Shown here: positions 2,527 through 23,162 of the stretch, piece by piece
Layout: every line of letters begins with the position of its first letter
Numbering within the stretch: the stretch's first letter is position 1
Virus record (IMG/VR): IMGVR_UViG_3300049810_002334
Span: 1-25,121 of that record
DNA length: 25,121 nucleotides
DNA from: a virus
Direction: 5' to 3' (one strand)
Program-made: the position numbers and the translations under genes
Notes under the pieces: generated by a model
What the model was told of the DNA's origin: nothing
Seen by the model: only the letters and a program-made list of their open reading frames with translations
Databases searched by the model: none

Positions 2527-2887
2527 AAATTGATTTCCTCATTTCACTAACGGATTTTTTACTGAGTTCTTTTATATATTTTACACCAGCGTAATAAATA
2601 TCAGTGGGACTTAAGTGATTTTTGTATACACCAGCCTTTGGGTGGCTGATTTTATTGATTATTTCGCACTTTATGAAATCATTATTAAACAAAATTTCAT
2701 TCAAAAAATGGATTTCAGCTACGTCTGGAGTGACGGACATATATCCTTTGCCAAACTCTTTATGGTGAACAAAATACATTCCAGATTCAGTCTTGGATTC
2801 GTTGTAAATGTTTATGGTAGGGAATCCCATTTTAGAGCTTAAACCCAAACCTTTGAAAACTTTACCAAATATAATATTTTTATTCAT
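2501..2887 (-). CDS. Riboflavin-kinase-like protein
   Basis: The 128-residue product resembles the riboflavin kinase (flavokinase) domain of RibF and eukaryotic RFK, a six-stranded barrel that phosphorylates riboflavin to FMN. Visible hallmarks are 'GKVFKGLGLSSKMGFPTINI' (residues 8-27), containing the PTxN motif that binds Mg-ATP, 'SGMYFV' matching the GxY strand, and 'AEIHFLNE' (residues 57-64) matching the EvHl segment whose Glu is catalytic in known enzymes. It is close to the size of the isolated domain and lacks the FAD synthetase half of RibF. The first 8 bases overlap the end of an oxygenase-like gene and the last 26 overlap the next gene. Flavin metabolism beside 2-oxoglutarate oxygenase-like genes is unusual in a phage. 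The fold call is fairly good; activity on riboflavin is not shown. Confidence 0.6.
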   Translation of the reverse strand: MNKNIIFGKVFKGLGLSSKMGFPTINIYNESKTESGMYFVHHKEFGKGYMSVTPDVAEIHFLNEILFNNDFIKCEIINKISHPKAGVYKNHLSPTDIYYAGVKYIKELSKKSVSEMRKSIYDTNLYKK

Positions 2888-3449
2888 TTATAATAAATTT
2901 TTTAAAAATTCTCAATGCTGTTTTTAATTTGATCATTTTACCTCTGTATCCAGGAACAAAGCATATAGTCCATCGGGGTTCGTTTGTAGGGTTGTGTGTC
3001 GAATGTAAAACTCCAACATTTAGTAGACTGGGTTTATTTGTGTTTCTTTCAAAAACCAAAGTAGAATCTTCCTCTTTCGCCAAAAGGATTGGTTGGGTGC
3101 TATAATCAGCCTTAGGGTCTTGCCATCTATAAGTTTTATCTGAAGTCCACCATCTAACAGTTGCCTTTTCTGAACCCCAAGTCATATTTATTTTAACATG
3201 GTCATCTGGAGAGTCATCTTTATCATTGTAGTCATCTGTATGAATTGGAACACTGCCATTTGGGGGAGTGTAAAAGACTTCAGTTTTTAAACATTCTAAG
3301 CCAAGTTTTTTTAACCAAGATTCGATATTGGGGTCTTGATATTTTCCTCTCAAACTTATCTGTTCCCAGTTTTGTGGAGTCTCGTGTGTTATGGGCGGCC
3401 TGGCAATTTCAAAAGGCAGATTTAAGTATCTGTGGTAGATGTTATCCAT
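2880..3449 (-). CDS. 2-oxoglutarate/Fe(II) oxygenase-like protein 1
   Basis: The 189-residue protein has the metal-ligand pattern of the 2-oxoglutarate and Fe(II)-dependent dioxygenase double-stranded beta-helix. H70 and D72 lie in 'SVPIHTDD', and a distal H149 in 'NVGVLHSTHN' is followed by R159 in 'EPRWTICFVPGY', the expected 2-oxoglutarate-binding basic residue ten residues downstream. The sequence between, with 'INMTWG' and 'VRWW', fits the core strands. Aspartyl/asparaginyl hydroxylase-like members have a similar small core. It is the most diverged and last of four oxygenase-like genes; its first 28 bases overlap the gene before it and its end overlaps the riboflavin-kinase-like gene. 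The substrate is unknown. All four ligands are present, so it could be active. Confidence 0.65.
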   Translation of the reverse strand: MDNIYHRYLNLPFEIARPPITHETPQNWEQISLRGKYQDPNIESWLKKLGLECLKTEVFYTPPNGSVPIHTDDYNDKDDSPDDHVKINMTWGSEKATVRWWTSDKTYRWQDPKADYSTQPILLAKEEDSTLVFERNTNKPSLLNVGVLHSTHNPTNEPRWTICFVPGYRGKMIKLKTALRIFKKFIINE

Positions 3450-3943
3450 TTTTTTACTTTTTGTTTTAAAATTGGGTATAATAATTTATGCTTATTTAAA
3501 GCAAACTCTATACTGAATATAGATCTGTTCCCTTCTATATTAAAGACTCCGTGAGGTATTTGATTATTAAATAAATAGAATTTGTTTGGTTTATATTTTA
3601 ATTCTGTCAAATCAGAATAGTGAGAATGCCCTTCAAAAACTTTTTCTGAAAATAGTGTTACTGAATTTTTGTCCTCCAATAACACATTAACGCATACACC
3701 CCTACTAACGTCTTGATGAAAATTATAAAGCATATTGGGTGGCATTTTTATGACGCCACAATTAAATTCGTATTCACTATATAGCCATTTTAAAAATGGA
3801 TTGCGGTCTATGAGATCTTCTTGATTTAATACGGGATACGTATAAAACCCATTGTGATTAAATGGCTCTTGTTGGATTTGTAAGTCGTTGCTTTCAAAAG
3901 TTTGGTTTGGGATTTCTAAAAAATATTTATCAGTTTTATTCAT
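3422..3943 (-). CDS. 2-oxoglutarate/Fe(II) oxygenase-like protein 2
   Basis: The 173-residue product is a close paralogue of the next gene upstream (3936-4484). Shared blocks are 'NPFxxWL', 'CGxIKMxPNxxYxxHxDV', 'RGVCxNxL' and 'FYLFNxxxxHxVxN'. The candidate iron ligands are H76 and D78 ('NFHQDVS') and H131 ('QIPHGVFN'), with R140 nine residues later ('GNRSIFSIEF') as the likely 2-oxoglutarate contact. It is short for a dioxygenase but covers the double-stranded beta-helix core. The first 8 bases overlap the end of its paralogue (ATGAATAA). Substrate is unknown; hydroxylation of a protein or small molecule is possible. Marine phages often carry such genes, commonly near structural genes. Confidence 0.6.
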   Translation of the reverse strand: MNKTDKYFLEIPNQTFESNDLQIQQEPFNHNGFYTYPVLNQEDLIDRNPFLKWLYSEYEFNCGVIKMPPNMLYNFHQDVSRGVCVNVLLEDKNSVTLFSEKVFEGHSHYSDLTELKYKPNKFYLFNNQIPHGVFNIEGNRSIFSIEFALNKHKLLYPILKQKVKKWITSTTDT

Positions 3944-4484
3944 TTAAAAATTCAGTTTTAATTTTATTTTTAATTCTTTCGTAGGTTAAAAGCGGATAAT
4001 CTAATTCAAACTCTACGCTAAATAAAAGCCTTTCTTTTTCAAAATTATAAACCGAGTGAGCTTTGCTAGTGTTAAATAAATAAATTTCATTTAAGTCGTA
4101 AGTGAACGGGACAATATCAGTCTGAAACTCCTCGCCACCGTGAGACATTAAATTATTTAAATTATCTGTAAACAAAACAAAAGATGGAGAAGGTGTCACT
4201 AGGGCGTTAATACATACCCCTCGATTTGTTTTAGTTTTGCCCACATCAATATGCCAATCATAAATTTTATTTGGTTCCATTTTAATTAGACCGCAAGAGA
4301 ACTTATAATTTTCCGCCAACCATTCAAAGAATGGATTACCTTGAATGAATTTTTCTACATCAATCTGTTTCAAATAGAAGTGATAATACAAATGTTCATC
4401 ATTATTTACAAGGGGGATATCTACTAAATTTAAGGGTTTAGATGGTATTTTCCAAGCATATTTTTCATCTATTGGATAATTCAT
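3936..4484 (-). CDS. 2-oxoglutarate/Fe(II) oxygenase-like protein 3
   Basis: The 182-residue protein is the tandem paralogue of the following gene (3422-3943). Candidate metal ligands are H78 and D80 in 'YDWHIDVG' and H143 in 'SKAHSVYNF', followed by R152 in 'KERLLFSVEFE'. The N-terminal 'GNPFFEWLAENYKFSCGLIKMEP' parallels 'RNPFLKWLYSEYEFNCGVIKMPP' in the paralogue, so the duplication covers the whole gene. Its ATG overlaps the stop of the previous gene (ATGA). It belongs to one long overlapping transcription unit with the GNAT-like genes. The ligand set is complete, so the protein is probably an active oxygenase, but the substrate cannot be read from the sequence. Confidence 0.62.
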   Translation of the reverse strand: MNYPIDEKYAWKIPSKPLNLVDIPLVNNDEHLYYHFYLKQIDVEKFIQGNPFFEWLAENYKFSCGLIKMEPNKIYDWHIDVGKTKTNRGVCINALVTPSPSFVLFTDNLNNLMSHGGEEFQTDIVPFTYDLNEIYLFNTSKAHSVYNFEKERLLFSVEFELDYPLLTYERIKNKIKTEFLNE

Positions 4485-5017
4485 GATTTATCTACGTTTA
4501 GCCCTATTGATATTCTATTTGTTTTCGAGCCGACACAATGCCAAAATGGTTTATCTCTTGAAACTACAAACTTTCTATGTTGCCAGCCCTTCTTATCCCA
4601 GTCAGTTATTATCTCACCAGTTTCTGGGTCTCTGTACCTAAAGAAACTTTTTTTATCTTCTGCCGCCCAAGCAAAGTAGATTCTTTCGCCTTCGCAATTA
4701 TTGTTTGTATGCCAGCCGCAAAAAGCATCGGGAGGATACCAAAAAAAGCCAGAGTATTTTCTTTTAATTCCTGTTTCTTCCTCAAGCATTTCTTTCAATT
4801 TGATTTGATAGAATATTGAATTATTTAAAATTATGCGATTGTCGTTATGGTCAATAGAACCAGGTTTTGCTAAATCCCCATTAATCATGATTTGATTAAG
4901 CACCTCTTCAGAAAGAGTATAATCCATATCATATTTATTTGGAAAAAATTTATTAGTTTGATTTACTTTTTTAAATTCTTCTAGAATTTTGTCTAACTTT
5001 TTATATATATGTTTCAT
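4481..5017 (-). CDS. 2-oxoglutarate/Fe(II) oxygenase-like protein 4 with HxN in place of HxD
   Basis: The 178-residue protein has the same core arrangement as its three neighbours: 'GFFWYPPDAFCGWHTNNN' (H103, N105), then 'RIYFAWAAEDKKSFFRYRD', then 'KPFWHCVGSKTNRISIGLNV' (H160, R168). The usual Asp of the HxD pair is replaced by Asn. Fe(II) dioxygenases normally need a carboxylate there; halogenases use Ala or Gly at that position. The protein may therefore be inactive, bind metal weakly, or do different chemistry. The N-terminal third is a helical extension not seen in the other copies. Its start overlaps the stop of the GNAT-like gene by four bases (ATGA), and its own stop does the same with the next gene. 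Confidence 0.55.
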   Translation of the reverse strand: MKHIYKKLDKILEEFKKVNQTNKFFPNKYDMDYTLSEEVLNQIMINGDLAKPGSIDHNDNRIILNNSIFYQIKLKEMLEEETGIKRKYSGFFWYPPDAFCGWHTNNNCEGERIYFAWAAEDKKSFFRYRDPETGEIITDWDKKGWQHRKFVVSRDKPFWHCVGSKTNRISIGLNVDKS

Positions 5018-5502
5018 ATGTGGAAAATAACTTTTATTGGATCTCCCATTTTAACTGTTATATTATAAAGCCTATGCAAGAATTTTAAATATCTTTCTGG
5101 GTCTTTCCTGTCTATGATAGTATGTATTTCATTGAATCCCAGTTTTTTCATGCCGTCAAAACTTTTGAGCGAACCTTTAAGTGTCATTTTATCATATCTA
5201 AAACTTTCAGATTTAAATATAAAAGGATTATAACATATGCCATCTTTTATTCTAAAGCAGTAAAATCCACAAATCTTACCAGTTCCATCGTCAATTACAA
5301 CAGTGTTGTGTTGACAGGATTCTACGAGTTCTTTTGTTCGGGCTTTAAAAAACTCAATTTTTTGACTAAATGTTTTTAAAGAATTTGATTCGCTAAAATA
5401 GTTTGTGTCAACTTTTTTATGAAATTTCATCAATTCATAAGAAAGTTCGTCTAAATATTTAGGTTCATAATTAACTGTATGGTTACCTTTACATATTATC
5501 AT
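5014..5502 (-). CDS. GNAT-fold acyltransferase-like protein, copy 2
   Basis: The 162-residue protein looks like a degenerate GNAT N-acyltransferase fold. Residues about 65-85 ('NTVVIDDGTGKICGFYCFRI') match the strand pair beta2-beta3 of the fold, with the typical turn 'dgGKIvGf'. The C-terminal 'RKDPERYLKFLHRLYNITVKM' parallels 'KRDRFDTYVKFMKRTFNLHVM' in the preceding gene, so the two are probably duplicates. The canonical acetyl-CoA pyrophosphate-binding loop (Q/RxxGxG/A) is not visible. Related GNAT-like proteins occur in some marine phages, sometimes as virion components. It overlaps its neighbours by four bases on both sides. Fold call moderate; activity unproven. Confidence 0.5.
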   Translation of the reverse strand: MIICKGNHTVNYEPKYLDELSYELMKFHKKVDTNYFSESNSLKTFSQKIEFFKARTKELVESCQHNTVVIDDGTGKICGFYCFRIKDGICYNPFIFKSESFRYDKMTLKGSLKSFDGMKKLGFNEIHTIIDRKDPERYLKFLHRLYNITVKMGDPIKVIFHI

Positions 5503-5999
5503 TTTAAAAATTCTACATATACTCTACCGAAAGCGTCTGTTTGCATAACGTGAAGATTAAAAGTTCTTTTCATAAATTTTACATATGTATCAAACCTATC
5601 CCGTTTACCCAGAATCGCAAAGACCCGTTTGTCGCGGAATTCTTTTTTTAAGCCAAATAGTATTATATATTTAAATAACTTATTAAAAGGGACGTCTTCG
5701 TCTTTAAATATTAAAATAAGGTCAACCCCTTCTTTAACCACAACACTGTCACCGAAACAAGCATACCCAACAATTTGACCATTTTCATCATTTTCTACGA
5801 CAAAATGATACTTGTGGTCACTTATTAGTTTTTTAAGCTCTCCAGATAGGTATGGGTATAAGAAAATAGGGCTTTGATCTTTGCCCAAGCTATGGTAAAG
5901 ACTAACTTCAGCCTTGGCTTGAAACTTAATAAAAAGATGAAAAACGCTTTCAAAGTCTTTGGGTTCATATTTTCTATAAGAAATGTTTTCTAGCTTCAT
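5499..5999 (-). CDS. GNAT-fold acyltransferase-like protein, copy 1
   Basis: From the ATG at 5999 the product has 166 residues. The same frame is open further upstream to a TTG at 6053, but that would run across the promoter and start codon of the divergent L-like gene, and GNAT similarity begins right after the ATG ('ENISYRKYEPKDFESVFHLF', the usual beta1-alpha1). 'HFVVENDENGQIVGYACFGD' gives beta2-beta3 of the fold. The acetyl-CoA loop motif is not recognisable, as in its downstream paralogue. It is the first gene of an eight-gene overlapping unit leading through the oxygenase-like genes to the 84-residue gene. Modification of a phage or host molecule is a guess from context. Confidence 0.55.
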   Translation of the reverse strand: MKLENISYRKYEPKDFESVFHLFIKFQAKAEVSLYHSLGKDQSPIFLYPYLSGELKKLISDHKYHFVVENDENGQIVGYACFGDSVVVKEGVDLILIFKDEDVPFNKLFKYIILFGLKKEFRDKRVFAILGKRDRFDTYVKFMKRTFNLHVMQTDAFGRVYVEFLK

Positions 6000-6032
6000 T
6001 TTAATTTGTATGTTTTGGGTGTAATATAGTAC
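6000..6032. promoter_or_regulatory. Divergent promoter region between the modification cassette and the tail genes
   Basis: This 33-base gap separates two divergent transcription units. On the plus strand GTGTAATATA (6019-6028) lies four bases before the ATG of the L-like gene, the best form of the repeated motif. On the minus strand the same bases read TATATTACAC, and TATATT would give a -10-like box with a short leader for the GNAT-like gene. No -35 box of the TTGACA type is visible in the plus direction, which suggests a phage-specific polymerase, sigma factor or activator. Confidence 0.5.
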
Positions 6033-7106
6033 ATGGCAAATGGAATAAATCAAGCTTTTGCAAGAGCTATTTTCGATGTAGAACCAACGGCGTTATTGGA
6101 ATTGTATACATTATACTACGATTACCAGAACGATTCTCAAGCCCAAATCAATTTTCATGGAGGAACTAATGGCATTGGAGGGCCAATTATCTTTGATGGC
6201 CAAGAGTATTTGCCAATTCCTGTAGAAGCAGACGGGTTTGATTTATTAGGTGACCAAAGACTACCTAGGCCCGTAGTTAAGGTTTCAAACGCTGGTTTGT
6301 ATATTTCTTCGCTTTTAAGGAAATACGATAATTTAAATGGGGCCAAAGTAGTAAGAAAAAGAACTTTTTTGAAGTTTATAGACGATGTGAACTTTCCCGA
6401 CGACTCCAATCCTTGGGGGTCTGCAAATCCAGATGCTAGGATGCCAGATGATAAATATTTTATTTCTAGAAAAAAATCTGAAAATAAACTCGCGGTTGAG
6501 TTTGAGTTAGTTTCTAGTTTAGAACTCGAAAATATAGAAATTCCAGCTAGAAAAATTTCAGCAAGATACTGTTCTTGGATTTATAGAGGATTTGGGTGTA
6601 GATACGGCTACAACAAAACTGCTACTAAAGCTGATAGGCCAATTGGAACAGTTGATGATAACACTTTTGTAACTGGCGCTGGAACTACTTTCAGATTAAA
6701 CAGCGATTTAATTCCTCTTGCTGGAGGTGGGTCACACCCACAGCAAACTTCTGTTGACAATTGTATAAGCGATAGCGGATTATGGCAAGCGTCTACAGAT
6801 CAAACTACGGTTACATATGCTGTAGGCGATTATGTATTTAAATTAAGCGACAGGGTTAGTGAGGGACAGGGTCTCACCTCTAATTATTATCAACAACACC
6901 CAGTTTACTATATCTGTAAAAGCGGGCATGATTCTGTAAGCGGTCAGACGCCAGAAAGAAGACCCGACTTATGGATTAAAGACGAGTGTTCAAAAAAATT
7001 ATTTGGTTGCAGACTTAGATTCGGAAATGATGATTTTGGAGGAGTAAATAATAATAAAGATCTTCCTTATGGCGGATTCCCAGGAACAGAAAAATATTCA
7101 TACTAA
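6033..7106 (+). CDS. Minor tail protein L-like, tail tip (possible iron-sulfur cluster)
   Basis: The 357-residue protein belongs to the lambda gpL family of tail-tip proteins, which sit between the tail tube and the central J protein. Typical features are the N-terminal 'IFDVEPTALLELYTL', the segment 'FDGQEYLPIPVEADGFDLLG', and the cysteine-bearing C-terminal half. In that half, C180 and C189 ('ARYCSWIYRGFGCRYG') and C319 and C326 ('DECSKKLFGCRLRFGN') correspond to the four conserved cysteines that hold an Fe-S cluster in lambda gpL. The end, 'LPYGGFPGTEKYSY', is also typical. A segment of about 110 residues between the two Cys pairs, with two extra Cys (C244, C295), is longer than in lambda. 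It is the first gene of the plus-strand tail unit and its stop overlaps the next start. Confidence 0.88.
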   Translation: MANGINQAFARAIFDVEPTALLELYTLYYDYQNDSQAQINFHGGTNGIGGPIIFDGQEYLPIPVEADGFDLLGDQRLPRPVVKVSNAGLYISSLLRKYDNLNGAKVVRKRTFLKFIDDVNFPDDSNPWGSANPDARMPDDKYFISRKKSENKLAVEFELVSSLELENIEIPARKISARYCSWIYRGFGCRYGYNKTATKADRPIGTVDDNTFVTGAGTTFRLNSDLIPLAGGGSHPQQTSVDNCISDSGLWQASTDQTTVTYAVGDYVFKLSDRVSEGQGLTSNYYQQHPVYYICKSGHDSVSGQTPERRPDLWIKDECSKKLFGCRLRFGNDDFGGVNNNKDLPYGGFPGTEKYSY

Positions 7107-7480
7107 TGAGCATTAAAAGAAAAATAGAATTTGAATGTGAAAAAGATGTTTCCGAAGAGCGTTGCGGTTTTGTCGTCTGGAAAGACGGAGAACTAGATTT
7201 AATAATGTGTGAAAACAGGGCCGAAGATAAGAAAAATCAATTTTATATACCAGCAAAAGAGTTTCTCTATATTAAAAAAAATAATGATATTGTAGCTATT
7301 TATCATTCCCATAATGATGGAACCGAGAAGCCCTCAGATTTTGATATTAAATCTGCTGATATTATTTGTTATCCATTTTTAATATATTGCACAAAGAATA
7401 ATAAGTTTGGAATCTACGAGCCAGAATATTCTGATGCGGGAAAAGAACAACTAGATCAACTAAAGGAAGAGGTAATATGA
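7106..7480 (+). CDS. JAMM/Mov34 metallopeptidase domain protein, K-like
   Basis: The 124-residue protein is a stand-alone JAB/MPN domain with a complete JAMM zinc motif: E18 in 'EERCGFV', then H67-S-H69, seven residues, S77 and D80 ('HSHNDGTEKPSDFD'). In lambda the K protein carries this domain at its N-terminus, fused to an NlpC/P60 cell-wall peptidase; here the NlpC/P60 half is absent and no such domain was found in the next genes. Between L and I is the expected place for K. The likely role is cleavage of a tail protein or activity during tail assembly or entry. Its first base is the last base of the L-like stop codon, and its end overlaps the next gene (ATGA). Confidence 0.88.
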   Translation: MSIKRKIEFECEKDVSEERCGFVVWKDGELDLIMCENRAEDKKNQFYIPAKEFLYIKKNNDIVAIYHSHNDGTEKPSDFDIKSADIICYPFLIYCTKNNKFGIYEPEYSDAGKEQLDQLKEEVI

Positions 7481-8031
7481 CAGAAATAACTTTACATGGA
7501 TTAGTTGCAAAAAAATTTAAACCATTTTTTAAGATGAGTAATATATCTAGACCAGTTGATTCTATTTTAGCTATTGACGCTAACTACGATGGGTTTAAGA
7601 ACTTTTTTTTACGAGAAGCTGAAAAAAATAATTTTTATCAATTTATTGTAGATGGAGATTTAGTGACAAACGCCAACGAGGCGCTCGAAAGAAAAGAAAT
7701 ACAAACAATAGATATTGTCCCGTGCGTAAGTGGCTCTGTCCCAGTACTTGCGGCATTTGTTGTAAATTTAGCGATTGGACTAGTCATGGCTGGAATACAA
7801 TATTTAATGACTCCCATACCCGAAAACGAACCGAAAACAGCGGTGGCGCAGTTAGGGGGAAATTCTTTTTGGTTTGCTTCAAAAGCTAATATTCCAGCTC
7901 AGTTTATTTCTGTGCCTTTAGGGTACGGAGAATTGAGAGTCGGCTCTAAAGTTATAGAGCAAACTATTGAGGCTATTGATAGAGCTGATGGAGATTCAAG
8001 TCCGCCAACAACAGAAGGGTCAAATTACTAA
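7477..8031 (+). CDS. Tail assembly protein I-like, copy 1
   Basis: The 184-residue protein matches the lambda gpI family in order and content: an N-terminal ubiquitin-like region ('ITLHGLVAKKFKPFF' to about residue 80), 'DIVPCVSGS', one hydrophobic segment (about 88-111), the conserved 'MTPIPENEP', and a C-terminal 'PLGYGELRVGSKVI'. In lambda, I is needed for assembly of the tail tip but is not found in the finished virion. The end after 'RVGSKVI' is short and rich in Asp, Ser and Pro. It is followed at once by a second, longer I-like gene with the same layout. Start overlaps the JAMM gene stop by four bases; stop and next start overlap by one base. Confidence 0.82.
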   Translation: MTEITLHGLVAKKFKPFFKMSNISRPVDSILAIDANYDGFKNFFLREAEKNNFYQFIVDGDLVTNANEALERKEIQTIDIVPCVSGSVPVLAAFVVNLAIGLVMAGIQYLMTPIPENEPKTAVAQLGGNSFWFASKANIPAQFISVPLGYGELRVGSKVIEQTIEAIDRADGDSSPPTTEGSNY

Positions 8032-8720
8032 TGAAAACAAAAATTAGACTTCACGGAAAATTGAAAAAACTTTATGGGGAATATTTTGAGTTTGCTAATA
8101 TTAGAAAACCAATTGACGCCATCAAGGCGTTAGATGCTATATTCCCAGGCTTTAAAAAAAGCGTAATTGATGAGGCTAAAGCTGGCGGGCATTACGAGAT
8201 AATATCGAACGGCGAAACAAAAAATGCATTTGAATTAACAAGAGACCAAAAAAAAATTGAAGAAGTTGATATAGTCCCTTGTTTAATTGGTCACGCTGGA
8301 AGTCTTGTTATAGCGCTTGGAGCTCTTGCTGTTGGTGTTGGTCTTTCTATTGGTGTTAGTACAGCCCTTGGAGCCTTTTTTATAGCGTTAGGCGTAGGTT
8401 TGATTATTGCTGGTATTATGTATCTACTAACGCCTATACCAGAAAACGAACCAAATGAAAGAAGTATTACATCTTCTATTAAAAATGCATCTTTTCTTTT
8501 TCAAAACCCAAGAAATGTATCAACACAAGGAAGAGCTATACCTATTGTGTACGGGAGACTAAGAGTTGGGTCTTATGTTGTCGGGACCGCTGTTACAAAC
8601 TTTGAATTACATTTAGACGCTCAATTACAAAGAAGATACGCATCTAATAGAACAAATGCGCTATTAAAGATACAAAAATCATTTGGGAATTCTATATCTG
8701 AATTATACAGGACTTTCTAA
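8031..8720 (+). CDS. Tail assembly protein I-like, copy 2
   Basis: The 229-residue protein is a paralogue of the gene before it. Shared elements include 'LHGxLxKxxxxxFxxxNIxxPxDAI', 'DIVPCxxGx', a hydrophobic region, and 'LTPIPENEP', followed by 'IPIVYGRLRVGSYVVG'. The hydrophobic part (89-134) is Gly-rich and about twice as long as in copy 1, enough for a helical hairpin, as in typical I proteins. It also has about 40 extra C-terminal residues with a basic, amphipathic look. It is directly followed by the first J-like gene with a one-base overlap (TAATG). Two I-like genes for two J-like genes suggest that each J has its own assembly partner, which is inference. Confidence 0.8.
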   Translation: MKTKIRLHGKLKKLYGEYFEFANIRKPIDAIKALDAIFPGFKKSVIDEAKAGGHYEIISNGETKNAFELTRDQKKIEEVDIVPCLIGHAGSLVIALGALAVGVGLSIGVSTALGAFFIALGVGLIIAGIMYLLTPIPENEPNERSITSSIKNASFLFQNPRNVSTQGRAIPIVYGRLRVGSYVVGTAVTNFELHLDAQLQRRYASNRTNALLKIQKSFGNSISELYRTF

Positions 8721-11700
8721 TGAAAGAGTACATATTAAAAAAGTACAGAAAGTATAATAAAAATTTTGTATTCGGCCGAGGAGACGAGGCTCAAAAAAAT
8801 CAAAATGCACTGCAAGCTAATGCAGATAGAGTGGGTGACCAATTTACTCGACTTACTCCTCCGTTTTCTTCTGATTTAAAATTATCAACTGCTGACCTAA
8901 TCGCTTGCGATTTAATATCTGAAGGGCCAATAGAGGGATTTGTTAATACTAATGGAAAATCTTGTTCAGCATTAGAAGCCACATATTTAGACGGAACAGT
9001 TGTCGCAGAACCAGTGCTTTCAACAAAGACAGTTGACAATCTAACAACAGGAAAATTAAGCGGCGTTTTTTACAACTTTAAACCTTTTGTTAGCGGTGAA
9101 TTAGATTCATATGCAAGAGAGCTTGACGGCAGATTTGTACATAAAGAATACCCGACTTCACAATCAGCCCTTGGGGCCGCGGGCAGTTACGGGGTAATCG
9201 ATTTTGTAAAAAAAGTGACGACGATATTAGCTTGCCCTGGTGGTAATCAGAAACTGGATACTTTTATGGCATGGAATCACGGGACTAGTACGACAAGGAC
9301 GGCAAATGACTCTTGGGACAGTCTTAAAAGGGCTGGTCATGGGTATAGAAAGGTTCCTTATCAATACAGAAGGATATATCACCCAAATAGACCTAAACCT
9401 GGTAATAATTATAGTCTCCCTAGCACCTATGTCTACACCGATGAACAAAACCCAATTCTTTATCAAGGCAATTATGGTTTTGGAGCTTCAATAAATTCAA
9501 GTGGTAGGTTGTCGAAATCTTATTGTACAAGAGCTTTTGTTAAAACCTTACATGTATCAGATGCAGTAGCTTATGCTGGTTCCACGTTTAACAACTTTAG
9601 TGCTTACTTAGGCACCGCCATGAATTTTAATCCTACTTTTGCTTCTAGATTTCCAAACGGAAGACCAAGTAAATATAGATATTCATTAGCTAGCTACTAT
9701 GAACCAGAGGGATTGAAAGAACCAATTATAGATGCAATAGCTGAAAAAATAAACGATTTGGGTTATGATTATTGGAAGCCTTATAGATTTTATAACTCTG
9801 ATCCAAATATTATCGGAGGTATAGCAGTACCAACGTTGGAGGCGACTTATGCCAATGACGCTGAGCCATATTCATCAACTAACGTAAGATACCCGAGTGG
9901 TTTGTACAATGTGTTTAATCCTGGAACGAAAGCATATCAGCTAAGGGACGCTGATGGAAACTTACTTTTTAATTCAAATGGTAGTGCTAAAATGGCAGCA
10001 AAGGCTCAAAGAGACAAAATATTTCGAAGAAAGACTGTAATTGACGGAAAAAATGCTGACAAGTTTGTATCTAGATGGGGGAGTCAACAACTAGATTTAA
10101 CGGAATATGGAACTTACGATAATGCGGCTAGACTTTATAAACCTAATGTAACATATAGATTTACTGGGTCAATTTATATACCTTCTGCTAATGATAATGT
10201 TAATGTAGTAAAGTTTCAATTGGTGGATAATGGCGGAAAGACTGCATTTAGTATAACTGGAGGCACAACTGACTTTCCTTTTAATCAGTGGAATGATTTT
10301 GATTTCGAATACACAAACAATGATTTCAGAAGATTAAGAATAAGAATGTATGAAAATAGCTCTAATCCAGGAGCGAACGCTAGCGGAGATTGGTTTGCGT
10401 TCAATGACATGACAGTTCTTGAAAAAACGACTGGAAACGCTTCAGAGAGTAGTAGCGATTTTGCGTATATGGCATTTTCTGCTGATGATTTTTTCGGTAC
10501 AAATTTTAATAAAGATCACGAATTAACATTTTCAGTAGATGGAGAAAGATTAGAAATAGAAGATGAGAATGGCCTAGGGCACTCCTTCCCAGAAGTTACT
10601 GGCTTTGATTTGAGATCAAGAAGCGTTAAAGAATCATTTGTATATAGGAAGTTTTTGATAGAACCAGGCGGTAGCCGTGGGCAATGTTCTTATTCTAACG
10701 GGGGGTATTCGCAAACACAAGCATTTCCTATAGTTACTGGAGCTTCAAATGCTACAAGTCTTGGGATGGAGTTAAATGAAGCCGAGTCAAATAAATTTAA
10801 AGGAACTATTCTTTATCCAGTTTATTTGGGAGAAAAAGCAATTCCTTTAACATCTAATGGAAGTATAAATACTGGAATAATATTTATTAACCCATCGGAT
10901 TCAGCTACGATAAGTGGAAATAAAATTGCAAGTGGGGCATCTAACGATTATGATGTGTTTGCTTTAAAAAATGGAAATTTTGAATACGCGCACGTCGCTA
11001 ACCCAAATGTTAAAGCCCCATCCGTAGAAACCTTAAACAAAAAAATAGGATTAAGGTTAGTAGAAAGAGATCCAGGTCTTTTTAATTTTAGTAATTTTAG
11101 AATGGATTTTAATTTGGGTGAAGAAAACCAGAAACCGCTAACTCAAGAAAATTTGACTTCGACAGAATTCAATAAATCAATATACGGCCCAAGTAATCCA
11201 AACGAAGAATTTGACCCCGAGATAAATATGGACGAATCCATTACCAATGCCAATAATGCTGGAATGAGGCGTTATTCCGCACTCGAGGGCACATCTAGCG
11301 CTGATGTTGAATCGAATCTCGAGTTTCAATCCGACTGGATGGCGAATATACCTCTTGATGTTGATTATGTACCATTAACTTATATAGTTAGTAGAAAAGA
11401 GGTAGACTGCATAAAAATCACATTTATTATTGAACAATTATACCAAGACCTTATTTCTCAACAAGACATTTATGAAGCTTCAGTAAAAACAGATGCATTG
11501 CAGATTAATTTTTCAATTTTTATTTCTTTTGAAGGGGTTCCAGAGAGTATATTCCCAACCGAAGAAACAAAAATTTCTTATTATGGACTCGTTCCAGGTT
11601 TTTATGCTGTGGATAGTGATCAAATTACATTACCTTCATATGATGATATTATTGATGATTATCCAAATGAAACTAAAGCTAGTTTAGCTCAAAAATTTCC

Positions 11701-13507
11701 AAGAAAAGTTGAAGTAAGAAAAAATGATTTCGAAACAAATTCGACAAGAATGGCGAGGGCGGCCAGAATATTCCAAGTCATAGAAGTGATAAAAGAAAAA
11801 TTTTCTTACCCATTCTCTGCTGTGATGAAAACGTATCTTGATGCTAGATCTTTTAAAGACCCTCCGAATAAACAATGGAATGTAAGATTAAGAAAAATTA
11901 AAATACCTTCGAATTACTTTCCTTTGGATTTAGAGGGAAAAGATAAAAGATTTGTTGATAATGCAGAAAACCTAGGAACTAGAATAGTTTACGACGGCGA
12001 CTGGGATGGAAGTTTTAAAATAGGTTGGACAGATAATCCTGCTTGGATTTTGTATGATTTATTAACTGATCAAAGATATGGAGTAGGAAATCGAATAGAC
12101 AGTTTTGAAGATATAAATATTTTTAATTTATATAAAATTGGTAGATATTGTGATTCTGTAGACAATAACGGAATTTTTGTTGGTCTAGATAATGGAGTGG
12201 GTGGATTAGAGCCAAGATTCTCCTGCAACATTATGTTAGATATTTCAAATAACGGTTTTGAATCAATAAAAGATATAGCATCAGTATTTAATGGTATGGC
12301 GTTCTGGGCTAATGGCAGACTAGACTTTTTCGCTGATCAGCCTAAAGAAGTGATGATGTATTTTAACAATGGAAATGTTTTTGATGGAATATTTAATTAT
12401 CAAACAACAAATAAATCTTCCTTGTTTAATACTGCAGATGTTGTCTATTTAGATAAGAGAGATAATTATACAGCGAAAAAAGAAACAATTGTTGATGAAG
12501 ATGGGCTAAGAAAAAACGGACTTTTAAGAAGAAATGTTACAGCGAGAGGAGCGACAAGCAGATCACAAGCAAGTAGACTTGCAAGGTACATAATATACTC
12601 AAATAAACTAGAAAGAGAAGTCGTAAACTTTAAGACTTCTGCCCAAGGATTAATGCTTTCTATTGGAGATATTATTGAAGTCCAAGACGAGCTTAAAAAC
12701 TTTGAAGCCAACTATGCAAAAATTTTAAATATACAATCAGTTGGCGATAAATTTATAGAAATAGAAAATAAAATAAACACAAATTCCGTAATTAACAATC
12801 ATAGCGGGGCTTTTGTAATAGTATCTACAGGGCAGGATAAATTAGTTGACCTATACAATAATGTTGAAGCGGGAGGTACAATTGGAACTCAAGAATTGAA
12901 TGATATGTATACTCCACAAGTTAGAAAATTAAAAATTACGGGAGCAAATGAATTAGCTACTAAAATTAGAATTGGTATCGAAGACCCAAGTGGATATTTG
13001 CCCGATGTTCAAACTGGCACTTTGATTAATTTAGATTTGACAAATAGGGTGCCGAAACAATATAGAGTGTTGTCAATCAATCCAGAAGAAACTAATTTGT
13101 ATGGGATCAGCGCTACAGAGTATAGAAAAGAAAAGTTTGATATTATAGAATCTCCAATTAATTATTCTTTAGATGAGGCAGAGCCTTATAATATTGGAAT
13201 ACCACAAATCGTTAACAAGCCAATTACCGAGCCGTTAGGATTTGAAAGTCAAGTAGTGGCCACACAATACAATTCAGAGATAAACTTTCAAATTACTGGC
13301 GATATTACTGGCAATGAAACCGCTTATAAATTAAGTATTATTCATCCAAATGCGAAAGTAGATACAAAAAGAATATTAAAACAAGATACAGTGACAAATG
13401 GGAATTTTGTAACAACTGGGAAGTTTAATGATATAACTTCATTTGGAACATACACATTTGAAGTGAGCTCTATAAGTTCAGAAGAAATTTCTGACCAAAC
13501 GAATTAA
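8720..13507 (+). CDS. Central tail-tip / host-specificity protein J-like, copy 1
   Basis: The 1595-residue protein is a J-like tail-tip hub. The N-terminus ('LKLSTADLIACDLISEGPIEGF') is the usual start of J proteins. The hub core lies at about 1090-1420: 'YDGDWDGSFKIGWTDNPAWILYDLLTDQRYGVGNRID', then 'RFSCNI', 'VFDGIFNYQ', and a strand-rich region ending near 'IEVQDELKNFEANYAKIL'. Between are J-specific additions: a jelly-roll, carbohydrate-binding-like module at about 450-575, and a mixed beta region at about 850-1000. The C-terminus (about 1490-1595) looks like one fibronectin type III domain. Such proteins close the tail tube, bind the host receptor and start DNA entry. It ends soon after the FN3-like domain, unlike copy 2, which continues for over 100 residues. 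Confidence 0.88.
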   Translation: MKEYILKKYRKYNKNFVFGRGDEAQKNQNALQANADRVGDQFTRLTPPFSSDLKLSTADLIACDLISEGPIEGFVNTNGKSCSALEATYLDGTVVAEPVLSTKTVDNLTTGKLSGVFYNFKPFVSGELDSYARELDGRFVHKEYPTSQSALGAAGSYGVIDFVKKVTTILACPGGNQKLDTFMAWNHGTSTTRTANDSWDSLKRAGHGYRKVPYQYRRIYHPNRPKPGNNYSLPSTYVYTDEQNPILYQGNYGFGASINSSGRLSKSYCTRAFVKTLHVSDAVAYAGSTFNNFSAYLGTAMNFNPTFASRFPNGRPSKYRYSLASYYEPEGLKEPIIDAIAEKINDLGYDYWKPYRFYNSDPNIIGGIAVPTLEATYANDAEPYSSTNVRYPSGLYNVFNPGTKAYQLRDADGNLLFNSNGSAKMAAKAQRDKIFRRKTVIDGKNADKFVSRWGSQQLDLTEYGTYDNAARLYKPNVTYRFTGSIYIPSANDNVNVVKFQLVDNGGKTAFSITGGTTDFPFNQWNDFDFEYTNNDFRRLRIRMYENSSNPGANASGDWFAFNDMTVLEKTTGNASESSSDFAYMAFSADDFFGTNFNKDHELTFSVDGERLEIEDENGLGHSFPEVTGFDLRSRSVKESFVYRKFLIEPGGSRGQCSYSNGGYSQTQAFPIVTGASNATSLGMELNEAESNKFKGTILYPVYLGEKAIPLTSNGSINTGIIFINPSDSATISGNKIASGASNDYDVFALKNGNFEYAHVANPNVKAPSVETLNKKIGLRLVERDPGLFNFSNFRMDFNLGEENQKPLTQENLTSTEFNKSIYGPSNPNEEFDPEINMDESITNANNAGMRRYSALEGTSSADVESNLEFQSDWMANIPLDVDYVPLTYIVSRKEVDCIKITFIIEQLYQDLISQQDIYEASVKTDALQINFSIFISFEGVPESIFPTEETKISYYGLVPGFYAVDSDQITLPSYDDIIDDYPNETKASLAQKFPRKVEVRKNDFETNSTRMARAARIFQVIEVIKEKFSYPFSAVMKTYLDARSFKDPPNKQWNVRLRKIKIPSNYFPLDLEGKDKRFVDNAENLGTRIVYDGDWDGSFKIGWTDNPAWILYDLLTDQRYGVGNRIDSFEDINIFNLYKIGRYCDSVDNNGIFVGLDNGVGGLEPRFSCNIMLDISNNGFESIKDIASVFNGMAFWANGRLDFFADQPKEVMMYFNNGNVFDGIFNYQTTNKSSLFNTADVVYLDKRDNYTAKKETIVDEDGLRKNGLLRRNVTARGATSRSQASRLARYIIYSNKLEREVVNFKTSAQGLMLSIGDIIEVQDELKNFEANYAKILNIQSVGDKFIEIENKINTNSVINNHSGAFVIVSTGQDKLVDLYNNVEAGGTIGTQELNDMYTPQVRKLKITGANELATKIRIGIEDPSGYLPDVQTGTLINLDLTNRVPKQYRVLSINPEETNLYGISATEYRKEKFDIIESPINYSLDEAEPYNIGIPQIVNKPITEPLGFESQVVATQYNSEINFQITGDITGNETAYKLSIIHPNAKVDTKRILKQDTVTNGNFVTTGKFNDITSFGTYTFEVSSISSEEISDQTN
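10050..10430 (+). other. Carbohydrate-binding-like jelly-roll module inside J-like copy 1
   Basis: The encoded segment runs from about residue 445 to 570. It has the strand order and key positions of carbohydrate-binding modules of the CBM4/9/22 type: 'YRFTGSIYIPS', 'VVKFQLVDNGGKTAFS', 'FNQWNDFDFEYTN', 'FRRLRIRMYENSS' and a terminal 'DWFAFNDMTVLEKT'. No match is present at this place in J-like copy 2. It probably adds a sugar-binding surface; the sugar is unknown. Confidence 0.5.
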
Positions 13508-20396: not shown

Positions 20397-21480
20397 ATAA
20401 GTATAAACTTTCTATTTCTGATTTTGAGATTCCATCATATACGAAGTTATTTGTTTTGTCAAGTCTTTTAGCGGAAGATTCTGATAAATAGAACTCCCCG
20501 TCTAGAACAAATTGCTTATTTGATATATACTTGCAGTCTTCGGGTAGATTAGGCACCTCGGGAGCTTCTTCTTTTAAAATCACACTATAATCAAAATACT
20601 TTAATCTTACTTGGGAAACTATTTCCTCGTTGGAGACTTCTATAATAATCCTCTTATTGTATCTTTTTAATATTTTAAAAAATTTTGCTAAGTCTTCTTT
20701 TTCATGTTCTTCAGAGTATTTAAAAACAATTTGTTTAAGGTTTGGTAAATTAGCTACGATATGCTCTTCTAACTCATTGTCTAAATAAAGATTTACAATG
20801 CAATATCGGCACCAACGAGTTATCATTTCCAAATCAAAGTGAAGGTCTGATCTTAGATTTACTGGTTTACCTTTAACTTCTTCGTAGGGCTTAAAAATGT
20901 TAGGGACAATTTCCATTGTGGGATTATGAAAATTTTCGCCAATTCTAATTGTTTTAAAATTAACATCGAATTCAATCTCAAGTTGAGCTAATATAATTTG
21001 TGCTATAGTCTCTGGTTTGATTTCATTAACTCTATTCTTTCCTTCTTCCATTTGAAAAGAAGGTTTTTGTTTTGAAAAATCTGGAGTTACAACTTCCGCA
21101 TATTTAAACAAATTAAAATTTTCTTCATACATATTACCTAATACGCAAACAGAAGGAATGGAAAAAATGTCACTAAGGTGGACTCGATGACTGGCCGTCC
21201 CCACATATAACAATGATTTTTTAATTAAATGATTATTTTGCTTAACTGTTATTTTATCTTGTTCTGGGGCTGTTAATATACCTATCTCTTTTTCTTCTAA
21301 AGCTTCTTCTATCATAGAAAAAACAACGTCCCAATGTTTATATTCTTGTGATGGATAATCTCCATGTGGATTAAAATAAATATATTTATCCATAACATTA
21401 GGATAAAAATGATCTGTTATTTTAGGTTGCCCAATTCTGACCCCCAAATCTTTTGCGTAAACTTCTGCTATGTGCGACAT
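20383..21480 (-). CDS. Glycosyltransferase GT9-like C-terminal half plus extension
   Basis: The 365-residue protein begins in the middle of a GT9-type (heptosyltransferase-like, GT-B fold) enzyme. Residues 1-30 resemble the linker helix region ('SHIAEVYAKDLGVRI'). Residues about 30-130 form the C-terminal Rossmann domain, with 'YIYFNPHGDYPSQEYKHWD', 'HLIKKSLLYVGTASHRVHLSDIF' and 'SIPSVCVLGN', where nucleotide-sugar binding is expected. The matching N-terminal Rossmann half lies at the end of the upstream gene in another frame; the two genes overlap by 13 bases. The last part (about 200-365) is an unassigned alpha/beta region. Either the two products assemble into one GT9 unit, or a frame change restores a single protein. 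A role in glycosylating phage or host glycans is inference. Confidence 0.6.
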   Translation of the reverse strand: MSHIAEVYAKDLGVRIGQPKITDHFYPNVMDKYIYFNPHGDYPSQEYKHWDVVFSMIEEALEEKEIGILTAPEQDKITVKQNNHLIKKSLLYVGTASHRVHLSDIFSIPSVCVLGNMYEENFNLFKYAEVVTPDFSKQKPSFQMEEGKNRVNEIKPETIAQIILAQLEIEFDVNFKTIRIGENFHNPTMEIVPNIFKPYEEVKGKPVNLRSDLHFDLEMITRWCRYCIVNLYLDNELEEHIVANLPNLKQIVFKYSEEHEKEDLAKFFKILKRYNKRIIIEVSNEEIVSQVRLKYFDYSVILKEEAPEVPNLPEDCKYISNKQFVLDGEFYLSESSAKRLDKTNNFVYDGISKSEIESLYLYVKK

Positions 21481-23162
21481 AATTTAAATGTATTTTTATC
21501 TTTACCGTTATGAAAAAATGAAGCTGATCTTTGACTGCTATAATGCGGGAAAAAGGCCAGCTCAAAATAACCTTCATGATCTAATTTACCTTCAAGTAGA
21601 AATGGACTATCTATTTCCTTAGAATACGGAAGTACTTTATGAACGTCGGGATGATCTTCTATGTAAGAATATAAATCTGGTTGAGTAAATATATATATAT
21701 TGTGGGACGGATATAATTCTTTAACGTCTCCAATCATAGCATTTAACCATAGAATATCTGAGGCTGACTGGGGCAATACAATAGCTAAAGATTCGCCTTC
21801 ATCTATTAAATCAGATAAATCTAAGGTTTTTTCTTTTGCCTCTTTATCCCAATCAAAATCATAGTCTACATCTGGCATTTCATCTAAGATTTTTTCTAAC
21901 TTCTTGCCAACGACATCTGTAGAATAATTATCTTCTACCCATTTTCTAGCTTTCCAACCAATTTGCAATCTTTTGTTTAAATCCATGCTCCAAACTTTTT
22001 TAAGTTGTTTGGCTATGCTAGATGGATATGTTGAAGCTTTAATAAATTGAGTTCCTGGTTCTCGATACTCAGACCAGTCAAGTGGGAAACTACCACTTTC
22101 ACTAGTAGAAGAATCTTCTCCGCAGGAATAATTTGTAACTAGGGTAATTAGTCCAGTAAGTTTCGCCTCAAAGATAGGTATTTCCATACCTCCGCTAGTA
22201 AACGGATGACAATAGACATCCATTAAATTATATATTTGATTTAGTTGTTCTTCATCAACGCCGTGTTTGATATTTGTTGTATTAACTGTTTTTTTAGCTC
22301 CACAAAATCTACAGTCCTGCTCTTGACCGCTGAAGGGGCGTATATCATATTGGCTACAAGATGAGCAATGATAAGTTGTGAGAATATCATTATTGTCGAG
22401 GCCTTTTTCTTCTATAAGTCTTGGTATATCCCAACCTTCCGTCCAATGAGTATGTAAAAGTAATTTAGCTTTTGGACAATCTTTTTTAAATATTTTAAAA
22501 CCTTCCAGTAAGTTTGGTACACTTTTTCTTAATTGATTTCTGAAAACAAATCCAATAATAAATTCATCCGAAAGACCGAATTGTTTCCTTAATTTTTTTC
22601 TGTCTTCATCAATAAATCTATGGAAGTCTTCTGTATCGACGGTTCCGTGCAAAGTTTTTACATGACCTTGACCAGCTTTAACCATATCTTTTTCCGCAAA
22701 AGAAGCCCAAGTATAAAAATTTTTTGTTTCGGGGGCAGCCTCCATCGCTTGTGGTAAAATTGGCTGGCTATCGAGCGTAGTCCAAATCATATTATTAATT
22801 TTATTCCACCAAGGTTTTTTCCAGTAATTAGAAAAAGCCCAAATATCTTCAATTCCTATATAAATATCTGGCTTATATTCTTTGATTGCTTGATCAATCA
22901 TTTCAGCTCCATAGCTAGCCGTTCTAGCCCTATTTGGATCAGCATTAATTTGCTGTATAGCAACAGGGTTATTGGGTAGAGAGCCTTGAGCTTTCCAAGG
23001 TCTCGTTTTCAAGTAATGGTCGCCCCAGGGAGTCCCATTAGCAAATTCAATAATCTCATACTTGTTTGTGGCTTGTAAATAGCGGAGAATGTTTTTGGTG
23101 TGTTTGCCAAAACCAGTAAACGCTTTTGCGTTATTTGAATGAATTAGGACTTTCTTTTTCAT
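21468..23162 (-). CDS. GT4-type glycosyltransferase with embedded zinc ribbon and GT9-like N-terminal half
   Basis: The 564-residue protein starts with a GT-B fold glycosyltransferase of the GT4 type. 'HSNNAKAFTGFGKHTKNILRYL' is the acceptor-side Gly loop. The donor domain begins near 'FIIGFVFRNQLRKSVPNLLEGF', with 'VYCHPFTSGGMEIPIFEAKLTG' as the E-rich nucleotide-sugar motif (residues 317-337). Inside the donor domain sit two CxxC pairs (C266/C269 and C284/C287) forming a zinc ribbon. From about 455 to the end a second, GT9-like N-terminal Rossmann starts ('SLAIVLPQSASDILWLNAMIGD') and breaks off at 'FHNGKDKNTFKLC'. The continuation is in the next gene in the -1 frame. The start overlaps the stop of the upstream gene by one base (TAATG). 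Confidence 0.75.
   Translation of the reverse strand: MKKKVLIHSNNAKAFTGFGKHTKNILRYLQATNKYEIIEFANGTPWGDHYLKTRPWKAQGSLPNNPVAIQQINADPNRARTASYGAEMIDQAIKEYKPDIYIGIEDIWAFSNYWKKPWWNKINNMIWTTLDSQPILPQAMEAAPETKNFYTWASFAEKDMVKAGQGHVKTLHGTVDTEDFHRFIDEDRKKLRKQFGLSDEFIIGFVFRNQLRKSVPNLLEGFKIFKKDCPKAKLLLHTHWTEGWDIPRLIEEKGLDNNDILTTYHCSSCSQYDIRPFSGQEQDCRFCGAKKTVNTTNIKHGVDEEQLNQIYNLMDVYCHPFTSGGMEIPIFEAKLTGLITLVTNYSCGEDSSTSESGSFPLDWSEYREPGTQFIKASTYPSSIAKQLKKVWSMDLNKRLQIGWKARKWVEDNYSTDVVGKKLEKILDEMPDVDYDFDWDKEAKEKTLDLSDLIDEGESLAIVLPQSASDILWLNAMIGDVKELYPSHNIYIFTQPDLYSYIEDHPDVHKVLPYSKEIDSPFLLEGKLDHEGYFELAFFPHYSSQRSASFFHNGKDKNTFKLCRT

Follow-up and report, generated by a model that had tools for sequence, protein, structure and literature searches.

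The window analysed here, a virus record of 25,121 bases from a marine tailed phage, contains four consecutive minus-strand genes, which we call A (4481-5017), B (3936-4484), C (3422-3943) and D (2880-3449) and which encode proteins of 178, 182, 173 and 189 aa, respectively. Adjacent genes overlap by 4 (A/B), 8 (B/C) and 28 bases (C/D), and the chain of overlaps extends beyond the run on both sides. Upstream it takes in two minus-strand genes for possible GNAT-like proteins, G1 (5014-5502) and G2 (5499-6053), each joined by 4 bases; downstream it continues with a minus-strand flavokinase-like ORF (2501-2887; 128 aa), which shares 8 bases with D, and then an ORF at 2272-2526 (26 bases). A few small ORFs separate the run from a minus-strand tail fibre/adhesin-like gene at 681-1610. 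Two ORFs that precede this fibre gene, at 1625-1978 and 1980-2237, are tandem paralogues with 56% identity and are kept in relatives. Divergent from the run, on the plus strand, lie the lambda-like tail-tip genes L, K, I, I-like and J (6033-13507; phrog_18, 30, 32 and 31), and a glycosyltransferase gene occupies the far side of the window (21468-23162).

A sequence-only reading of this DNA had described four oxygenase-like genes tied by overlaps to GNAT-like and flavin-related genes and placed next to fibre genes. Most of this description holds. The flavin-related neighbour matches PF01687 (Flavokinase) at 26.1 bits against a cut-off of 19.6, and is possibly a truncated riboflavin kinase; the fibre ORF matches PF24243 (Phage_tail_C) at 33.4 bits and, weakly, YadA_head. 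The GNAT-like label is less secure: G2 matches the acetyltransferase family phrog_1249 (E 4.4e-4) and G1 is similar to it, as a distant paralogue, but neither gave a convincing Pfam match when 18 relatives were included.

The iron-ligand pattern HxD/N...H...R is present in all four proteins (2880-5017), where the earlier reading had placed it: H103-T-N105...H160...R168 in A, H78-I-D80...H143...R152 in B, H76-Q-D78...H131...R140 in C and H70-T-D72...H149...R159 in D, in each case with the arginine 8-10 residues past the distal histidine. Among 149 other phage ORFs in this size range, 5% contain a loose form of the pattern, as do 4-12% of shuffled versions of the A-D proteins. To find it in four of four genes is much more than chance would give, with the reservation that B and C do not count as independent cases; they are the tandem paralogues that had been pointed out (36% identity, E 2e-29). 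The four genes look like 2-oxoglutarate (2OG)/Fe(II)-type oxygenases, A and B by fold and C and D by paralogy or motif.

The AlphaFold model of A, built with 46 relatives aligned, has a pLDDT of 91.2 and shows an N-terminal helical part followed by eight strands. Its best structural matches by Z score (10-11) are PHD2, PiuC (pseudomonal iron uptake factor C), the P. putida prolyl 4-hydroxylase (P4H) and the viral collagen P4H (chlorella-virus prolyl hydroxylase), with PHD2 superimposing over 144 residues at 3.4 Å (Z 11.1). 2OG oxygenases canonically place their ligands after strand II, on strand VII and at the opening of strand VIII. Judged from strand positions in the models, the candidate ligands of A lie in these places, with H103/N105 after strand II, H160 opening strand VII and R168 opening strand VIII, and so do those of B (H78/D80 after strand II, H143 on strand VII and R152 on strand VIII). 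A double-stranded β-helix, on which the sequence-only reading had staked its case, is predicted for A and, at a pLDDT of only 74, for B. PHD2/EGLN and the bacterial and viral P4Hs share with A the jelly roll and the positions of the two histidines and the arginine, but are only 10-15% identical to it and carry Asp where A has Asn; the P4H link of A is a resemblance of predicted fold only.

This asparagine, which replaces the usual Asp/Glu in 46 of 46 aligned relatives, is the one feature of A that departs from textbook members. Members of the 2OG oxygenase superfamily without the carboxylate do exist, as in the halogenases. It could be argued from the invariable HxN that A is catalytically dead and serves as a protein for binding or as a chaperone in fibre assembly, with B-D active or decaying, and the gene that A often follows directly is indeed one for a fibre or for fibre assembly, which is the usual chaperone position. 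However, both histidines, the asparagine and the 2OG-site arginine stay invariant down to approximately 30% identity, as would be expected of a site that still functions, and we consider loss of catalysis very unlikely. The full set of residues invariant in the 46 aligned sequences is W102, H103, N105, F126, H160, R168 and G172.

Relatives of A were found at 203 viral loci, whereas a scan of 84,980 bacterial and archaeal genomes confirmed none; a search of the phage collection returned only two remote records, and no convincing Pfam or PHROG family match was obtained. A more specific proposal is that A represents a virus-only family of fibre-protein hydroxylases in which a 2-His-1-Asn iron site replaces the 2-His-1-carboxylate triad, and which would modify marine-phage tail fibres, in some cases collagen-like ones, post-translationally. 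In this full form we regard the proposal as doubtful. Phage C48C1 (Kyanoviridae) carries two A-family genes (L107, 5941-6609; L108, 5716-6423) and a third place detected by tblastn; its A-family genes adjoin tail-tube/UvsY and tail-fibre assembly genes.

The model of B was obtained from only three sequences (pLDDT 74.2) and shows a jelly roll laid out as in A; it matches the 2OG-Fe(II) oxygenase 6n1f over 151 residues at 4.1 Å (Z 9.8). The oxygenase assignment of C would follow from its paralogy to B, together with a weak match to phrog_274 (E 2.3e-5), a family that A, B and D do not match. For D the assignment draws mainly on the motif, which recurs in its relative from an unrelated phage (41% identity); comparison of the D profile with A-family proteins gave a weak signal (best 10.5 bits; shuffled maximum 7.4). 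R168 of A and R152 of B fit the 2OG-binding arginine by their models, R140 of C and R159 of D by spacing only. 

Profile searches against 2OG oxygenase families, which the sequence-only reading had proposed, yielded the weak phrog_274 match of C and nothing over the curated scores of PF13640 or PF13759, either for A-D or for the 46 relatives of A. PF13640 had no match across the window, and the near-identical record contains neither PF13640 nor PF13759. Profile-profile comparison of A, B/C and D was not significant, although the motif histidines fall in register; the B/C profile gave no signal beyond noise against the other sets, and sequence searches of the PDB returned chance matches only. 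B, C and D are nearly private to the window and its near-identical record, with B found also in one contig that carries A and D also in an unrelated phage. Alignment-based scans with B/C and D recovered only the near twin of the window, a short contig and one D relative; no B/C relatives were confirmed in cellular genomes, and the phage collection held no protein related to C, D or the D relative. Taken together, we are confident that A, B and C are oxygenase-fold metalloproteins, and somewhat less confident, though still inclined to accept it, for D.

The family matched by C is named 'DNA endonuclease V', yet several of its members (P-SSM2, HTVC008M) match PF13640. We rejected the endonuclease name for C on account of these matches to 2OG families. 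The phages concerned are P-SSM2, HTVC008M and S-PM2, and denV as a name in cyanophage records is probably an inherited error. A different reading makes A-D nucleic-acid oxygenases, active in AlkB-like repair or base modification. AlkB appears in the fold list of B (Z 8.8), and a DNA-repair role has been suggested for cyanophage 2OG proteins (PMC3037559), but the best matches of A are protein hydroxylases and PiuC rather than AlkB, and the locus consists of tail genes, not replication or repair genes. We find nucleic-acid substrates decidedly unlikely.

Comparison with related phages divides the run into two parts. G2 and A hold their position beside the tail-tip genes, usually with G1 still adjoining A, whereas B, C, D and the flavokinase-like ORF are absent from many of the related phages that carry A. 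These four genes are accordingly a variable insertion 3′ of A. D in turn has a relative in another phage that lacks A-C in the part examined. The sequence-only reading had proposed a multi-step or multi-target modification cassette; a single multi-step pathway is doubtful in view of these separations, and a four-step version was rejected, since A occurs without B-D in many phages.

When the neighbours of A at 36 diverse loci are tallied by named PHROG, tail-fibre and fibre-assembly families come out most often, and relatives of A adjoin such genes in unrelated phages, which makes virion proteins a fair guess as targets. In two records an A relative starts 7-16 bases past a collagen-like (Gly-X-Y) fibre gene (L045, 1402-4423; L046, 1858-4447), and collagen-like proteins occur in six of the 36 A-bearing records. 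The window's own fibre gene is not collagen-like and its near twin contains no collagen-like proteins, so a collagen-hydroxylase reading was dropped for the window.

Several records carry further genes beside A or the fibre genes. A small phrog_35149 protein with an 'RMIDGxHR' motif, ParB/sulfiredoxin-like by eye, is encoded directly 3′ of A in nine of 14 records searched (L058, L061, L062, L066, L067, L069, L074, L083 and L087). In L067 (1211-3118 and 3686-4282) the A relative adjoins a 635-aa protein with a PLOD-type glycosyltransferase domain; the contig also carries collagen-like proteins, an arrangement that recalls collagen hydroxylation and glycosylation. A BspA-type leucine-rich-repeat protein (LRR_5) is encoded just past the fibre gene in L001 (9827-10717) and L004 (8423-9466). 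L004, an A-bearing relative lacking B-D, also has an overlapping run at 9689-11827, just past its fibre genes, that consists of a sulfotransferase (PF03567), a PF13640 2OG gene and a biotin/lipoate protein ligase (PF03099).

The sulfotransferase in L004 and the glycosyltransferase in the window raise the alternative that A-D act with the latter on host cell-surface material or sugars, and so block superinfection or alter receptors. The glycosyltransferase gene is, however, 16 kb away and outside the A-D unit, and no feature of A-D indicates sugars; such a role appears quite improbable.

The sequence-only reading had considered a run of four such genes to be undescribed. This does not stand, because public records already show runs of four in two cultured ocean phages. 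Pelagibacter phage HTVC008M (KC465899, 57442-59681) has four consecutive overlapping minus-strand genes beside neck genes, annotated as 2OG-Fe(II) oxygenase or phytanoyl-CoA dioxygenase. Like the run in the window, they belong to a marine phage, encode proteins of similar size (178-196 aa) and lie on one strand, divergent from virion (neck) genes. They differ in that all four proteins exceed the cut-off of a 2OG Pfam family (PF13640/PF13759), which none of the window's proteins match, and in their setting, a myovirus with a ferrochelatase neighbour instead of a lambda-like tail-tip locus. In Synechococcus phage S-SCSM1 (MK867354, 210680-213294), ORFs 240-243 are four overlapping genes annotated as 2OG-Fe(II) oxygenases and stand directly before tail-fibre genes, as the present run stands near one, but their sequences fall into different families (two of the four into PF13759) and their host genome is that of a T4-like cyanophage. 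That a cyanophage can have multiple 2OG genes has been on record since 2010 (PMC3037559), and the authors of the S-SCSM1 genome counted 24 2OG-Fe(II) oxygenase ORFs (PMC9602691); co-located 2OG genes in pelagiphages followed in 2022 (PMC9599517), and EGLN3-like phage proteins, widespread in marine phages, in 2026 (PMC12774648). With several adjacent, overlapping 2OG-type genes beside virion genes, the window fits this marine-phage multi-2OG cluster. The present run is another instance, set in a lambda-like tail-tip locus and with sequence-divergent members.

In a metabolic or regulatory reading, along lines proposed for cyanophages, A-D are auxiliary genes whose products have small molecules or host proteins as substrates and/or deplete cellular 2-oxoglutarate during infection, and the position near the fibre gene is an insertion hot spot only. 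Cyanophage 2OG genes have been proposed to alter 2OG levels (PMC3037559) and pelagiphage 2OG genes often lie near ferrochelatase genes (PMC9599517); in the window, B-C-D form a variable insertion and a flavokinase-like gene belongs to the same overlapping chain. Against this, relatives of A in different phages keep company with genes for fibres and fibre assembly, and no shared metabolic partner was seen among them. We consider the metabolic reading possible but rather unlikely.

The explanation that we favour, tentatively and at a little under an even chance for the statement as a whole, is that A-D are 2OG oxygenases with an accessory role, inserted at a hot spot in the fibre locus, with fibre or tail proteins as the target suggested by the neighbourhood. 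A-D would be small single-domain 2OG/Fe(II) jelly-roll enzymes that bind the metal and 2OG, use Fe(II), O2 and 2-oxoglutarate, hydroxylate a substrate and release succinate and CO2. Beside the tail-tip genes, A is a resident gene in the conserved unit that it forms with G2 and, usually, G1; the variable part, inserted on its 3′ side, consists of B-D and the flavokinase-like ORF. The likeliest substrate, at least for A, would be a phage fibre or tail protein from the neighbouring genes, whose stability or binding may be tuned by hydroxylation; A probably hydroxylates such a protein, even though in phages the position of a gene says little about what its product acts on. Counting against this explanation are the lack of a Pfam 2OG match for A-D, the missing carboxylate ligand in A, the weak link of D and a fibre in the window without collagen-like character. 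The run of four is one more case of a known pattern among marine phages, within which A provides a compact, well-predicted and conserved example in the company of fibre genes.
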